Origin: Pirellulales bacterium
Lineage (GTDB): Bacteria; Planctomycetota; Planctomycetia; Pirellulales; S012-138
Reading direction: 5' to 3'
DNA length: 51,517 bases
NCBI GenBank assembly: GCA_028066245.1
Contig: JALCBR010000024.1
Location: 1 to 51,517 of the forward strand
The stretch's first letter is position 1, and every line of letters begins with the position of its first letter. The translations under genes were made by a program, and so were the position numbers. Under the pieces are notes generated by a model, which ran no database searches, had not been told where the DNA came from, and worked only from the letters and a program-made list of their open reading frames with translations. Positions 10,787-36,518 of this stretch are shown piece after piece.

Positions 10787-11683
10787 ATGGAACTCAAGAA
10801 AGAGAAGTCACGGACGGCGCACATTCAACTCGGCAACCCAGTCACCGAACAAGCGCAGTTGAAGATTGCAGGCGATCAAGCCACGACCAAGGAGGCAAAT
10901 GGGAAACAGGTGATCCGTGGTGCTAAGTCACACACCACGGGTGATGGCGCGGTTTCCGTGTTAGGGTTGCCGCGCGGCGGAGAGCCAAGCAACGCTCAAC
11001 TGCAACTCTTGAGACATCATAGTCGCGCGTTGGAGTCCGCACATCCAAGGGAAATCATCGCTTGGGCGGTTAAGCAATACTTTCCAAAGCTGACCATGGC
11101 CACGGCTTTCGGTCCCGAAGGCTGCGTCATTTTGCATCTCCTGGCCGAAGTTGAGCCACGTGTGCACGTCTTCAACCTCGATACAGGCTATCAATTCAAA
11201 GAGACGCTGGAACTCCGCGATCGGATTGCAACCCGCTACGGTATTCAGGTCAAGTTCGAGCGACCTGAACTTTCTGTTCAGGAGTACGAAGAGAAGAACG
11301 GCGGGCCTGTCTACGCCGTTGATGCTGATCGATGCTGCCTCGAGCGAAAGGTTCGGGTCTTGCGTCGCGCCGTCGCCGGATTTCACGGCTGGATGAGCGG
11401 CATCCGCCGTGATCAAAGCCCTCACCGCCAAAACACGCCGATCATCGATTGGGATCAGAAATTCCAGCTCGTCAAGATCAGCCCTCTGGCTGGATGGACA
11501 AAACACCAAATCTGGGATTTGATCCGCTCGGAGGACATCCCCTACAATCTTCTTCATGAGAAGGGTTACCTCAGCATCGGCTGTTGGCCCTGCACTCGAG
11601 CGGTTGCCGCTGGCGAAGATGAGCGAGCCGGGAGGTGGAGTGGGGCTGCCAAGACAGAATGCGGCTTGCATGTGCAGGGCTGA
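10787..11683 (+). CDS. cysH: Adenylyl-sulfate/phosphoadenylyl-sulfate reductase
   Basis: The 298-residue protein has the CysH fold. ATAFGPEGCVILHLL is the PP-loop-like nucleotide site and NLDTGYQF and WMSGIRRDQS are family signatures. The Cys pair C183-C184 in RCCLERK and C266/C269 in GCWPCTRA would bind the 4Fe-4S cluster, which marks the APS-reducing type. The C-terminal KTECGLH supplies the catalytic cysteine. It produces sulfite for the upstream sulfite reductase, using thioredoxin as donor. The first 60 residues are an unusual hydrophilic extension; the ATG at 10787 has GGGAG upstream, but a later start is possible. No cysD/cysN or sat gene is in this window. Confidence 0.92.
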   Translation: MELKKEKSRTAHIQLGNPVTEQAQLKIAGDQATTKEANGKQVIRGAKSHTTGDGAVSVLGLPRGGEPSNAQLQLLRHHSRALESAHPREIIAWAVKQYFPKLTMATAFGPEGCVILHLLAEVEPRVHVFNLDTGYQFKETLELRDRIATRYGIQVKFERPELSVQEYEEKNGGPVYAVDADRCCLERKVRVLRRAVAGFHGWMSGIRRDQSPHRQNTPIIDWDQKFQLVKISPLAGWTKHQIWDLIRSEDIPYNLLHEKGYLSIGCWPCTRAVAAGEDERAGRWSGAAKTECGLHVQG

Positions 11684-17358: not shown

Positions 17359-17765
17359 CGGAGTTCCCTTTCGGCGTGTGTTGTTTTCGTTTGGTTGAGC
17401 CTGAGCTCGCGTGTCGCAGATGCTCGGAAGAAAAAGCACGGCCCGTGCCAATTCGAAAGCGACCGAGGATTGAATGCCATAAGTTATTTTGAAATAATGA
17501 TTTGCAGTTAAAGCAGCAAGAATCATATTGAATTGCTCGGCATTTAAGTGTAATCAAAACGATCGTTTCTCCGTTTTGCTTGTGTCGAATTGATGGCGCG
17601 CATCTGCGGGAATCGTGCCTGCATGGTTCCAGAAGCGAACGGCCCGTTTGATTGTTACAACTGGTTCACCCCATCCCAACAGCCTTGCGGTAGTGGGCTG
17701 AGGTCAAACCTACCGACCGCGGCGGTGCTTTACTGTGCCAGCACATTCTGAGAAAAAACCGCCAT
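17359..17765. promoter_or_regulatory. Divergent intergenic region between the PDZ gene and mch
   Basis: No gene is seen in these roughly 400 bases. An AT-rich patch at 17484-17497 carries a 6-bp inverted repeat, TTATTT, 2 bases, AAATAA, about 125 bases upstream of the PDZ gene start; it may mark a promoter or operator for that gene. Nothing specific is seen upstream of mch. Confidence 0.35.
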
Positions 17766-18719
17766 ATGAGCGCTGTAAAGAAGATGTTGGAACTAAACGC
17801 TCAAGCGTCGAAAGTCTTTGCACAACTTGTGGATGATGCTCTGGCGCTCAAGGTGGAAATCCAAGAGATTGCCGGCGCGACACTCGTCGATTGTGGAATC
17901 AACGCTCCAGGCGGCCTGGAAGCCGGCAGGCGTTTGGCGGAGTTGTGCTTGGCGGGTTTGGGGACAGTCTCCATCGTTCCCGCGTCGTCTGCCGGCGCTT
18001 CCCTGGGCGTTTGTGTGCGCACTGATCATCCTGTTGCGGCCTGTCTCGCTTCTCAATACGCTGGCTGGCGGATTGCTCAAGGCGATTTCTTCGCCATGGC
18101 CTCCGGTCCGATGCGCGCAGTCGCCGGTAGGGAAGAACTCTTTGACAAGATTGGGTTCCGAGAGGCGGCACCCGGCACGCTGGTCGGCGTTATGGAGACA
18201 TCGCAGCTTCCCACCGTCGAAGTCATCGAGTCCATCGCCGAAAGTTGTCACGTCTCTGCGGATCGCCTGTTGCTCGCCGCCGCACCAACCACCAGTCTGG
18301 CGGGCTGTCTGCAAATCTCCGCGCGAAGCGTGGAAACGGCGCTGCATAAGCTCGAGCAGCTTGATTTCGATCTGGCACGGATTGTCAGTGGCTTTGGCCA
18401 AGCTCCGCTTCCTGATCCGACGCCGGAATTTGTCGAAGCAATCGGACGCACCAACGATGCCATCTTGTATCACAGTGAAGTCACACTTTGGGTCCGCGGT
18501 GATGACGCTAGCCTGGCAGAGATCACGCCACAGGTTCCCAGTTCAGCGTCTCCCGATCATGGGCGACCATTCGCGGACATCTTCCGTGGCTACAACGGTG
18601 ACTTCTATCAGATAGACCCTTTGCTCTTCAGCCCCGCCGTCGTGCGTTTGGTGAATATCGAGACCGGCACTGAGTTCCTTGCCGGCATGATGGGAAGCAA
18701 CGCAGCGAGACAGACATAG
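17766..18719 (+). CDS. mch: Methenyltetrahydromethanopterin cyclohydrolase
   Basis: The 317-residue protein matches Mch over its full length. Family features include GATLVDCGINAPGGLEAGRRLAE near residues 37-59, PVAACLASQYAGW, FFAMASGPMRA and the AILYHSEVTLWV and GDFYQIDPLLFSP segments toward the end. Mch hydrolyses 5,10-methenyl-H4MPT to formyl-H4MPT in the cytoplasm. In bacteria this pathway oxidises or detoxifies formaldehyde and is known in methylotrophic proteobacteria and planctomycetes. It is followed after three bases by the ATP-grasp gene, so the two are surely co-transcribed. Other H4MPT genes (fae, fhc, mtdB) are not in this window. Confidence 0.93.
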   Translation: MSAVKKMLELNAQASKVFAQLVDDALALKVEIQEIAGATLVDCGINAPGGLEAGRRLAELCLAGLGTVSIVPASSAGASLGVCVRTDHPVAACLASQYAGWRIAQGDFFAMASGPMRAVAGREELFDKIGFREAAPGTLVGVMETSQLPTVEVIESIAESCHVSADRLLLAAAPTTSLAGCLQISARSVETALHKLEQLDFDLARIVSGFGQAPLPDPTPEFVEAIGRTNDAILYHSEVTLWVRGDDASLAEITPQVPSSASPDHGRPFADIFRGYNGDFYQIDPLLFSPAVVRLVNIETGTEFLAGMMGSNAARQT

Positions 18720-18722
18720 CAC

Positions 18723-19622
18723 ATGCTTCTGGCTATCTTAGGTTCGCCAACAAGTTGGTACGTCAACGAGCTTCGCCGAGTCGCGCAGGATCGGCATGAC
18801 GTTGTTTGCTTCACTTTCAGCGAGCTTGGTTCGGCAGTTTCCAGTTCGGAGTTTCGCGTCACGGCTGATGGTGCACGGCTTGAAGAGATCGATTGCCTGC
18901 ACGTGCGGACGATGTCTGCGGCCAGTCTGGAACAAGTCATCTTCCGGATGGACCTTCTTTGGCAGTTGGAAGCTCGCGGTGTTCGCGTGGTCAATCCGCC
19001 GGGTGCTGTGGAAGCGGCTGTGGACAAATACTTGGCCACCGCCCGGTTGCAAGCGGCCGAGCTTCCAGTTCCGCCGACTGTTGTCTGCCAGAACGTGGAT
19101 CATGCCATGGCCGCATTCGCGGAGCTAGGCCAAGATGTCGTCGTGAAACCACTCTTCGGCGCCGAAGGGCGGGGAATGTCTCGGATTACGGACGAAGATA
19201 TTGCTTGGCGAACATTCAAAACTCTGGCCGAGCTACGTAGCGTGCTCTATCTGCAGCAGTTCATTCCGCACGACGGTTTTGACACCCGCGTCTTGGTCAT
19301 TGGAGATAAGCAGTATGCCATGCGGCGCGAAAATTCAGGAAACTGGCGAACGAACGCTGCGCGGGGAGCGGATTGCAAACCGTGCGAATTAACGCCGGAC
19401 ATTGCCGACCTCGCGCAGCGCGCTGCCGCCGCCGTCGGCGCGAGTCTCGCTGGCGTAGACATCCTGGAAGACTCCGCTGGCAAACGGTATGTTCTCGAAG
19501 TCAATGCCGTGCCAGGCTGGCAAGCATTAGCCAGAACGCTCGATGTTGATATCTCCGCGGAAGTACTGGATCACCTCCTTCGCCAACCGACAGACCGCGA
19601 GATGAGTGCCAGATCGAAGTAA
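18723..19622 (+). CDS. RimK/MptN-like ATP-grasp ligase
   Basis: The 299-residue protein is an ATP-grasp enzyme. NPPGAVEAAVDKYLATARLQ and the glycine-rich loop VVVKPLFGAEGRGM (about residues 140-153) bind ATP, YLQQFIPHDGFDTRV follows, and VDILEDSAGKRYVLEVNAVPGWQ supplies the Mg-binding Glu and Asn. This is the pattern of RimK-type alpha-glutamate ligases. In methylotrophs a related gene lies next to mch and is linked to tetrahydromethanopterin synthesis (MptN adds a glutamate). The adjacency, with only three bases between the genes, makes that role likely here. RimK-type protein glutamylation is the alternative. Confidence 0.82.
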   Translation: MLLAILGSPTSWYVNELRRVAQDRHDVVCFTFSELGSAVSSSEFRVTADGARLEEIDCLHVRTMSAASLEQVIFRMDLLWQLEARGVRVVNPPGAVEAAVDKYLATARLQAAELPVPPTVVCQNVDHAMAAFAELGQDVVVKPLFGAEGRGMSRITDEDIAWRTFKTLAELRSVLYLQQFIPHDGFDTRVLVIGDKQYAMRRENSGNWRTNAARGADCKPCELTPDIADLAQRAAAAVGASLAGVDILEDSAGKRYVLEVNAVPGWQALARTLDVDISAEVLDHLLRQPTDREMSARSK

Positions 19623-33950: not shown

Positions 33951-34715
33951 TCAGCGCGATTGGAGCGCTTCTTTCGCACGCGCGGCGGCCACGTCAACGC
34001 GTATCGGGAAACTGGCTTCGGCGGGCGGTAGACAAACCCGTTGGTTACACACTTGGTAACGAACGTTTGCAGTAATTGACTGCTCACCGATCTCAGCATC
34101 GTTACTCACACGCAACACTTGAGTAAACACCACCCCTTGGCCGACGTAGATTTCTTCGAGTCCTTGAAACGCAGGCTCTGGAACCGCTAGCTCTCCGTTC
34201 AGTTTCAAACTCTTGGGGAGCTCAAATCGTACGCTCAAGGGAATCATGGCTCCCACATTCTGTTTCGTAGCTGCGTACACGTGCCAACCCTCTTGGATGT
34301 CCAACCTTAATTGAATGTTGAATTCTGATCCTGAGTTGACACGAAGCGACTTCGTTACTGTGAGCGTCACTGGGCCAACAGTCTTTTTGTTTTGATCTTT
34401 AACCTCGGTTGCGCTGCTAGTCTCTTTCATTCGATCCGTTCCATGGCTGTCCCGGCCTGGAGGACTACCTTTACCTCGCTTTCCGCGGGCGTTCATATCA
34501 GGCGAATTCTCGCCAAGACCGTTTCTCTTCTTGCCTAGAAATACGTAGAGCCTTCCTTGGTGCCGCATCGTCAACCAATGTTCTTTCCCCTCAGCATAAA
34601 GGCGACCGACCGTCTTGTCCCAATAGTCCTGATTGAGCTTCAACATGTCGCGCAACTTATCGTCAGAAAACGCATCGCCAAATTGATTTTGAAGGGACTC
34701 AAGCGTCGGGCGCAC
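33951..34715 (-). pseudogene. Second half of a split FG-GAP/DsbD gene: DsbD-alpha-like domain
   Basis: This 254-codon stretch is in the same frame as the upstream FG-GAP gene; only the TGA at 34716-34718 separates them, and the first codon here is GTG. Its start (TLESLQNQFGDAFSDDKL and WLTMRHQGRLYVFLGKK) looks like a continuation of the FG-GAP protein rather than a new N-terminus. Residues about 120-250 form a DsbD-alpha-type immunoglobulin domain with GWHVYAATKQN and the redox cysteine pair in YQVCNQRVCLPP. That domain works in the periplasm, yet this half has no signal peptide of its own, so as a separate protein it would be misplaced. Read-through or translational restart are alternatives to a true nonsense mutation. 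Confidence 0.7.
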
Positions 34716-35993
34716 TCAAGGGGGATATAAACCCGGATCCTTTCCCGCACTTTGAACTTCCGTGACGTCCTCCCATTGCCAAGACAGTTCGGGCGAAAAA
34801 TCACCGCCGTTCACGGTGGCAACACTTGCTCCTACCAACAAATCGAGTACTCCGTCACGATTCCAATCATCAACGTAGACGCGTGTTCCACTGCCTGGAA
34901 GCGCCTTCAGCCCATCTTTCGTGGGCAACAAATCTTCCCCCGGATGGAAACGAAGCCCATCATCCGTGATGACTCCGCGAAAAAACGCGACCGCCATACT
35001 CTGAACTGATCGGTAGTCATCGGTCGCTAAGATGTCGAGGATACCGTCGCCGTTCCAATCGACGACAAACATTTGGGTTTTGGCGCTCCCGGCCGGCATC
35101 GCCATCCCAAATCCTTCAGAATTGGTTAACTCTTCACTCTGGCGAACCCGCGTTCGCAAAGGCTTTCCATGAATGTCCAGCAGCAATCTGCGCCGCGCAA
35201 ATTTTGGGTTGCGCTTGTCTCCCACGTTCTCGCTAACACGCAATGCGCTTCCACCAACGAATAAATCGAAATCGCCATCACCATCGAAGTCTCCGAAACT
35301 TGCCGACGAGTAGTTCCAATAGTCAAAGCTCTCTAACTCATCGAAGTCCTCGCCTCCTCTTTGCAAACGATTGGCAGCAGGGTTTCCTTCCTGCTCAAGT
35401 TTGACGCGAGGCAAGAAACCAGTTGCACTTCCTCGAAACCAACTGATCTCACCAGGATGGTATTGCCCCGTGATGATATCCAGCATGCCATCATCATTCA
35501 GATCAACAAACTGTGGCGTGAAACCAATACAACACCATTGAGGCACTTCAATCACATCTCCACTTGTATCGCGCGCATAAGAATATGTACTCGTGAACTT
35601 AGGCGCCGCGTCTGTCCCAACATTCAAGTAGACTCGAATCGCCGACCCGGCTTCTCCGGCAGGGAACCCATTACTTTCCGTCTTGGTTGCAAAGTCACCC
35701 AACAAAAGATCGCGCCTTCCATCTCCATCCCAGTCCCAAAGCGCTGGCGCGATCAACCCATGCTTCGTCGTTTGAACGGGTTTGGCTCCACCGAGAATCA
35801 GTAAGGGGCGCTCAAGTTTCGGTGTTCCCGCAATTTCGGGATCGATGAATTCGGGAAACCCCATTTCACCTTCATGCACCTGAGCATTTAAAAGCAACGG
35901 AGTTAGCACACAAATTACAAGCGAAATGAGGAAACGCGCGGCGTGCCTTCCCGGACAAACAACGCCGCATGTAAAGAGGGAAAGATCGTTCAT
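34716..35993 (-). CDS. Secreted FG-GAP/VCBS-repeat protein (first half of a split gene)
   Basis: From the ATG at 35993 the frame gives 425 residues with a signal peptide (FLISLVICVLTPLLLNAQ). It carries at least five calcium-binding FG-GAP repeats: WDWDGDGRRDLLLGDF, VDLNDDGMLDIITGQY, GDFDGDGDFDLFVGGS, VDWNGDGILDILATDD and DDWNRDGVLDLLVGAS, each with the DxDxDGxxD loop. Such propellers bind ligands or partner proteins outside the cell. The frame stops at TGA 34716-34718, after DPGLYPP, and continues without shift into the DsbD-alpha-like part, so the intact ancestor had about 680 residues. Confidence 0.85.
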   Translation of the reverse strand: MNDLSLFTCGVVCPGRHAARFLISLVICVLTPLLLNAQVHEGEMGFPEFIDPEIAGTPKLERPLLILGGAKPVQTTKHGLIAPALWDWDGDGRRDLLLGDFATKTESNGFPAGEAGSAIRVYLNVGTDAAPKFTSTYSYARDTSGDVIEVPQWCCIGFTPQFVDLNDDGMLDIITGQYHPGEISWFRGSATGFLPRVKLEQEGNPAANRLQRGGEDFDELESFDYWNYSSASFGDFDGDGDFDLFVGGSALRVSENVGDKRNPKFARRRLLLDIHGKPLRTRVRQSEELTNSEGFGMAMPAGSAKTQMFVVDWNGDGILDILATDDYRSVQSMAVAFFRGVITDDGLRFHPGEDLLPTKDGLKALPGSGTRVYVDDWNRDGVLDLLVGASVATVNGGDFSPELSWQWEDVTEVQSAGKDPGLYPP

Positions 35994-36518
35994 TTCGAGT
36001 TCCAAGAAATGCACTAGGTTAGGCAACCCCTACTAATTCGCAGCTTTTGCGAAGAGCCCAGAAGAGCTTGTTCCCGACGAAAAGGTCAACCCATCCTGGC
36101 ACAGAACCCCAGCGGCTTCAATCATTGTGTTTCTGATGATCAGTCCAGGGAGTTTCCAAACGGAAGACAGGAAATTTCGGCACTTTGCGTTTGAGGGGGA
36201 ATCCTATTGCCCTCTGCGCGGCCCTGGCCTGCCGCCGACATTGATGAAGCTAGACATCGCAGGATGACGTGGTCGTGTCCATTTGGCCAGCGGACTAGCA
36301 ATCGGACTGTGCAGCTCGTCTCTGCTCGAGGGAGCGAACATCAATGCTCGCCAACCCGAAAGACGCGCGCCACTCGCCCAAAGTCGTTTTGAAAGAGTGG
36401 CCACCGGCCTTGGAATTGCCACAGCCAAATGATCGCGAATAACCACCGTTTCTGGATCGTGACAACGCGTTCCTGAATTGACGAGGAACGCACGCTCCGA
36501 CAGGTCAGCCATCAGTGG
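35994..36518. other. Gene-free region between the FG-GAP and DUF427 genes
   Basis: About 525 bases. The only frame of size (36204-36512, minus) shows no domain and is unlikely to be a gene. I see no transposase remnant, palindrome or tandem repeat. Confidence 0.3.

Follow-up and report, generated by a model that had tools for sequence, protein, structure and literature searches.

A TGA-interrupted FG-GAP/DsbD-alpha gene and its apparent selenoprotein paralogues in Planctomycetota

Exported FG-GAP (integrin-like) propellers of Planctomycetota probably form a widespread and undescribed selenoprotein family that carries a vicinal selenocysteine–cysteine (Sec-Cys) pair and an in-frame bSECIS. A gene in the window analysed here (the whole 51,517-nucleotide stretch of DNA, a contig that is part of a 4.94-Mb, 186-contig genome, G000) would be a Cys-Cys form of this family, probably acquired laterally and fused to a DsbD-alpha electron-transfer domain, a fusion that hints at a redox site in the Sec-Cys pair. 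The window gene is itself interrupted by a TGA at another site. As a whole, the observations are very probably best explained by an exported protein cut by a nonsense change, together with planctomycete paralogues that are apparently selenoproteins and of which the window protein is the Cys form. The window stop is ordinary in itself, and the value of the finding lies in the paralogues.

Results

A single TGA splits an FG-GAP/DsbD-alpha frame

A single in-frame TGA on the minus strand (34716-34718) lies between an FG-GAP frame of 436 codons and a further 254 codons that end in a DsbD-alpha-like domain. The frame starts at 36026 (TTG) or 35993 (ATG), reads ...TAT CCC CCT TGA and goes on in-frame with GTG CGC CCG ACG to 33951. 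A sequence-only reading of this DNA had described the split without giving a strand, and our analysis confirmed it. The locus has the following features.

34716..35993, minus strand: FG-GAP/VCBS propeller part with N-terminal export signal, ending at the TGA (ATG at 35993, TTG at 36026 possible); from the frame, Pfam and homologues
34716..34718, minus strand: in-frame TGA, residue 437 of the joined frame; from the codon table and an alignment of 13 homologues
33951..34715, minus strand: same frame 3′ of the TGA, comprising FG-GAP tail, linker and DsbD-alpha-like domain; from the frame, Pfam and homologues
34521..34715, minus strand: conserved C-terminal FG-GAP tail (helical pair and final strand ...WLTMRHQGRLYVFLG), also found in natural FG-GAP-only paralogues
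34008..34343, minus strand: DsbD_N (PF11412) domain; from Pfam, with the ScsB N-terminal domain 6c29 among structure matches
34032..34049, minus strand: CNQRVC, a CxxxxC pair kept in full-length homologues (CKDDLC and similar)
35529..35534, minus strand: TGT TGT, the Cys-Cys of QWCCIGFTPQ, the first Cys aligned with the TGA of planctomycete paralogues
35503..35517, minus strand: place of the paralogues' SECIS-like hairpin, with 3/5 pairs left (GCCAC AGTTT GTTGA)

Pfam matched the first part to FG-GAP_3 (E 8e-17) and FG-GAP (E 5e-9), and the second to DsbD_N (E 3e-10, residues 125-236). Part 1 alone carries an N-terminal export signal, identified by eye (MNDLSLF...FLISLVICVLTPLLLNAQ). The transmembrane beta and thioredoxin-like gamma domains of DsbD were absent, the frame stopping after the alpha-like domain. 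A structure model (mean pLDDT 66), used solely to place the stop relative to the strands, predicted that the TGA falls in a low-confidence loop, which is followed by two helices and by the propeller region's last strand. Matches to the predicted structure included integrin-type propellers and the ScsB N-terminal domain; the PDB held no sequence relative of the window protein.

Homologues continue across the position of the stop

When GTDB species genomes were scanned for part 1, seven relatives came up, six from Gammaproteobacteria or Pseudomonadales MAGs and one from Chitinophaga cymbidii; whole-genome searches added further homologues (G808 and G832) as well as more distant ones (G1082 and G1078). 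Apart from FG-GAP-only copies, the relatives read on past the site of the TGA and share the DsbD-alpha-like domain with its CxxxxC. The joined frame aligned end to end with these uninterrupted homologues at 45-54% identity (about 50%) over 620-670 residues, and the interrupted frame is therefore more than chance. Of the 13 aligned homologues, 11 have Arg at the TGA column (encoded by CGG, CGC, AGG or AGA), one has Gln and one, that of Chitinophaga, has Glu; none shares the stop at 34716-34718. The sequence-only reading had proposed this search of the joined translation as a check. Its outcome bears out the claim made there, that one exported protein of about 680 residues was broken by a nonsense event turning an Arg codon into TGA, as full-length homologues have Arg (or Gln) at that point. 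Homologues consistently encoded as two proteins, the pattern named there as contrary, were not seen; the FG-GAP-only paralogues are not halves of a split gene. A two-gene organization was rejected because no homologue is split.

FG-GAP-only paralogues were found in four genomes, adjoin the full-length gene in three of these and end about 65 residues past the TGA column. The TGA is therefore not at a domain border, and the tail ...WLTMRHQGRVYVMLG is part of the FG-GAP domain; the stop at 34716-34718 severs this tail (34521..34715) from the propeller. In several Gammaproteobacteria (L002 3376-6887; L051; L054), an FG-GAP-only gene directly precedes an FG-GAP/DsbD_N gene, forming a tandem paralogue pair.

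The frame is the same on both sides of the stop, and a frameshift was rejected. General decay of the contig was also rejected, as the other same-frame stop pairs examined are normal gene borders: the neighbour pairs at 11681, 13946 and 18717 are ordinary consecutive genes, and the window gene is the sole interrupted one seen. By eye, the frames that flank the stop at 18717 (17694-19619, plus strand) resemble methenyl-tetrahydromethanopterin cyclohydrolase and an ATP-grasp ligase, which suggests tetrahydromethanopterin C1 genes.

Age of the stop and origin of the gene

In an LG+G4 tree of full-length sequences, the branch of the window measured 0.67 before the stop and 1.10 after it, a 3′/5′ branch-length ratio of 1.65, while the tree as a whole gave 1.84; beyond the stop, the frame has evolved no faster than in homologues. 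Because this ratio is not raised and the FG-GAP tail (64-73% identity to gammaproteobacterial homologues) is conserved like the N-terminal part before the stop (62-66%), no long period without selection is visible. Unaccelerated evolution is what a nonsense mutation of recent date or a base error would leave, and a read-through product would also predict it.

The window gene was not found in other genomes of the host's order (396 searched, E <= 1e-30), so no close planctomycete comparison was possible, and the host species is represented in the comparison by one genome. Across 392 genomes of the phylum, three weaker matches proved to be TGA-bearing relatives, and a scan of viral contigs found nothing. 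Gammaproteobacteria supplied the nearest relatives found, and the window gene has a third-position GC of 0.51-0.54, compared with 0.60-0.68 in six other window genes. Judged from these sequence features, lateral acquisition of the gene is likely.

Weighing explanations of the window stop

The window stop is most likely a nonsense mutation, recent by comparison with the divergence of the gene, or else an error in assembly or base calling. Taken separately, an error, with an intact gene in the organism and a wrong base in the MAG, is a possible though doubtful account. The stop comes from a single genome, the sequence after it looks normal and it is the sole such case seen in the window. Nothing speaks directly against an error, and a MAG consensus error may take the form of a substitution as well as an indel.

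Programmed or suppressor read-through of the TGA, including insertion of Sec, would yield a little full-length protein, and the sequence-only reading had raised it as a form of regulated expression. We regard it as very improbable, although the frame after the stop is preserved and the genome can apparently decode UGA as Sec elsewhere (tRNA-Sec, SelB). Homologues have Arg rather than Cys at the site, the stop is absent from every one of them and no SECIS-like element lies 3′ of the TGA: the RNA fold after it had z = +0.57 with no hairpin above shuffles, and a model of the paralogues' SECIS region did not match at 34716 (E <= 10). Of the about 50 tRNAs of the genome, tRNA-Sec alone reads UGA, and no other suppressor tRNA was present. 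Sec at the window TGA was rejected, given Arg, Gln or Glu in place of Cys in homologues and the missing SECIS. The companion proposal of two-part expression, by restart at the GTG just after the TGA, fares marginally worse still. This GTG lies immediately 3′ of the stop and opens 254 codons, but no ribosome-binding site, that is, no purine-rich stretch at Shine–Dalgarno distance, precedes it (TTTATATCCCCCTTGA followed directly by GTG). It encodes Val at a variable position where homologues have Glu or Pro, and its product would begin within the FG-GAP tail and lack an export signal.

A second TGA marks the planctomycete paralogues

The weaker planctomycete matches with one TGA carry it at a shared site other than the window stop. 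Its contexts are VPxG*C[IV]GFTPQ and W*CTSSTPQ, and in the alignment the codon stands opposite the first Cys of the window protein's QWCCIGFTPQ. Where 12 members carry this TGA, Cys-Cys is found in the window protein, in gammaproteobacterial and Bacteroidota members and in two from planctomycetes. All 12 read TGA TG(C/T), followed by TCC(A/G)C AG(T/G)TN G(T/C)GGA. A 5-bp stem (columns 18-22 with 28-32) pairs in 12/12, one pair varying between A-U, G-C and G-U, and its loop, A-G-K-U-N, starts 19 nt past the UGA and has G as its second base. In PMC13188914, a bSECIS is described as having a small apical loop that carries G at its first or second position and lies 16-37 nt from the UGA; the hairpin of the paralogues agrees with this description. 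The stretch had no match in Rfam.

In 15 distinct Cys-form sequences, the stem keeps 1-4 of its 5 pairs. The first stem base is T in 12/12 TGA genes and never T in the 15 Cys-form sequences. Conservation of the hairpin is due in part to the conserved PQ[FVL]VD peptide; coding alone preserves 4/5 pairs in some Cys homologues. The window gene, itself a Cys form, lacks the hairpin. Two planctomycete relatives (L012 1795-1869 and L013 992-1066, minus strand) likewise have Cys-Cys in place of Sec-Cys and no hairpin; Sec and Cys forms therefore coexist in the order. By computational analysis of codon, alignment and hairpin, the planctomycete FG-GAP paralogues appear to be selenoproteins. Simple calling of open reading frames was unreliable in high-GC genomes when six neighbourhoods of TGA genes were inspected, and we therefore claim no conserved context for these genes.

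Distribution of the TGA form and the Sec machinery

We searched 334 Planctomycetota genomes with the pattern TGATGY...TCCRCAG..GYGGA, allowing one mismatch, and found it in 69 genomes and in 45 of 231 genera; a reversed-pattern control gave 0 matches. All listed matches have TGA, though a Cys codon instead would cost just one mismatch. SelB scored above the curated cut-off in 209/334 genomes. Counted by hand from two tables, with E <= 1e-70 standing in for the cut-off, SelB was present in 62 of the 69 carriers, including all 36 well-assembled ones; the seven carriers that lack it have a completeness of 64-89%. For 62/69 against 147/265, Fisher's exact test gave p = 2e-8, an optimistic value as the genomes are related.

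SelB was scored in all 334 genomes and tRNA-Sec in the window's own genome, which holds a TGA gene on contig C36, a tRNA-Sec with anticodon TCA on C63 and SelB (397 bits) on C46. This paralogue (G000:C36:11317-11361, minus strand, within L057/L144) has TGA-TGC and the SECIS-like hairpin. Open-reading-frame calls on L144 place, by eye, DoxX-like and Gfo/Idh-like frames upstream of it on the same strand.

Discussion

The window gene would once have encoded one exported protein with a signal peptide, an FG-GAP propeller bearing a vicinal Cys-Cys and a C-terminal DsbD-alpha-like CxxxxC domain. A nonsense change at the Arg codon would halt translation at residue 436, with loss of the propeller's last helices and closing strand and of the whole redox domain. 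We infer that the stop is recent, that function was lost and that the protein had a redox role. The U-C or C-C site may serve thiol/selenol redox or metal chemistry outside the cytoplasm, and the DsbD-alpha domain of the fused form may act as an electron partner, passing electrons to that site.

About one-fifth of the sampled Planctomycetota genomes have FG-GAP genes in which gene finders would take a Sec codon for a stop; a group of exported selenoproteins has therefore probably been overlooked or annotated as truncated proteins. An extracytoplasmic beta-propeller with a redox-active Sec-Cys pair would, if true, be unusual among selenoproteins, and the Cys form fused to DsbD-alpha offers a testable hypothesis about the electron donor.

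In the literature that we searched, we found no description of an FG-GAP or VCBS repeat selenoprotein; an earlier listing is possible in the supplement of PMC4807772, which lists the selenoproteins of two planctomycetes. Bacterial selenoprotein families number 87 in PMC9312934, whose table holds no FG-GAP or VCBS protein, and more than 110 in the 2026 review PMC13188914. FG-GAP, VCBS and propeller are absent from the text of that review, the available portion of its family table has no FG-GAP/VCBS entry, and Deep-Sep (PMC12013277) mentions none of the three terms. No NCBIfam model matches the paralogues.

Among known systems, the closest to the window protein are the gammaproteobacterial and Bacteroidota FG-GAP/DsbD_N proteins (G776-G782, G808 and G832; for example, Chitinophaga cymbidii NZ_BKAU01000001), which share its order of parts, a CCIGFTPQ-type motif, the GKDPG region and the CxxxxC; unlike the window gene, they have no stop at the Arg position, and in several genomes they stand in tandem with an FG-GAP-only paralogue. 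With the DsbD alpha domain (PF11412) and the ScsB N-terminal domain (6c29), the window protein shares the Pfam match, the CxxxxC and a predicted beta fold; unlike DsbD, it lacks the transmembrane (beta) and gamma domains and is fused to an FG-GAP propeller. The paralogues resemble bSECIS-decoded bacterial selenoproteins in having a UGA, a Cys form in other lineages, SelB in the genome and, at the described distance, a hairpin whose small apical loop carries G in position 2. Most selenoproteins have a thioredoxin-like fold, but the U-C pair of the paralogues lies in a propeller.
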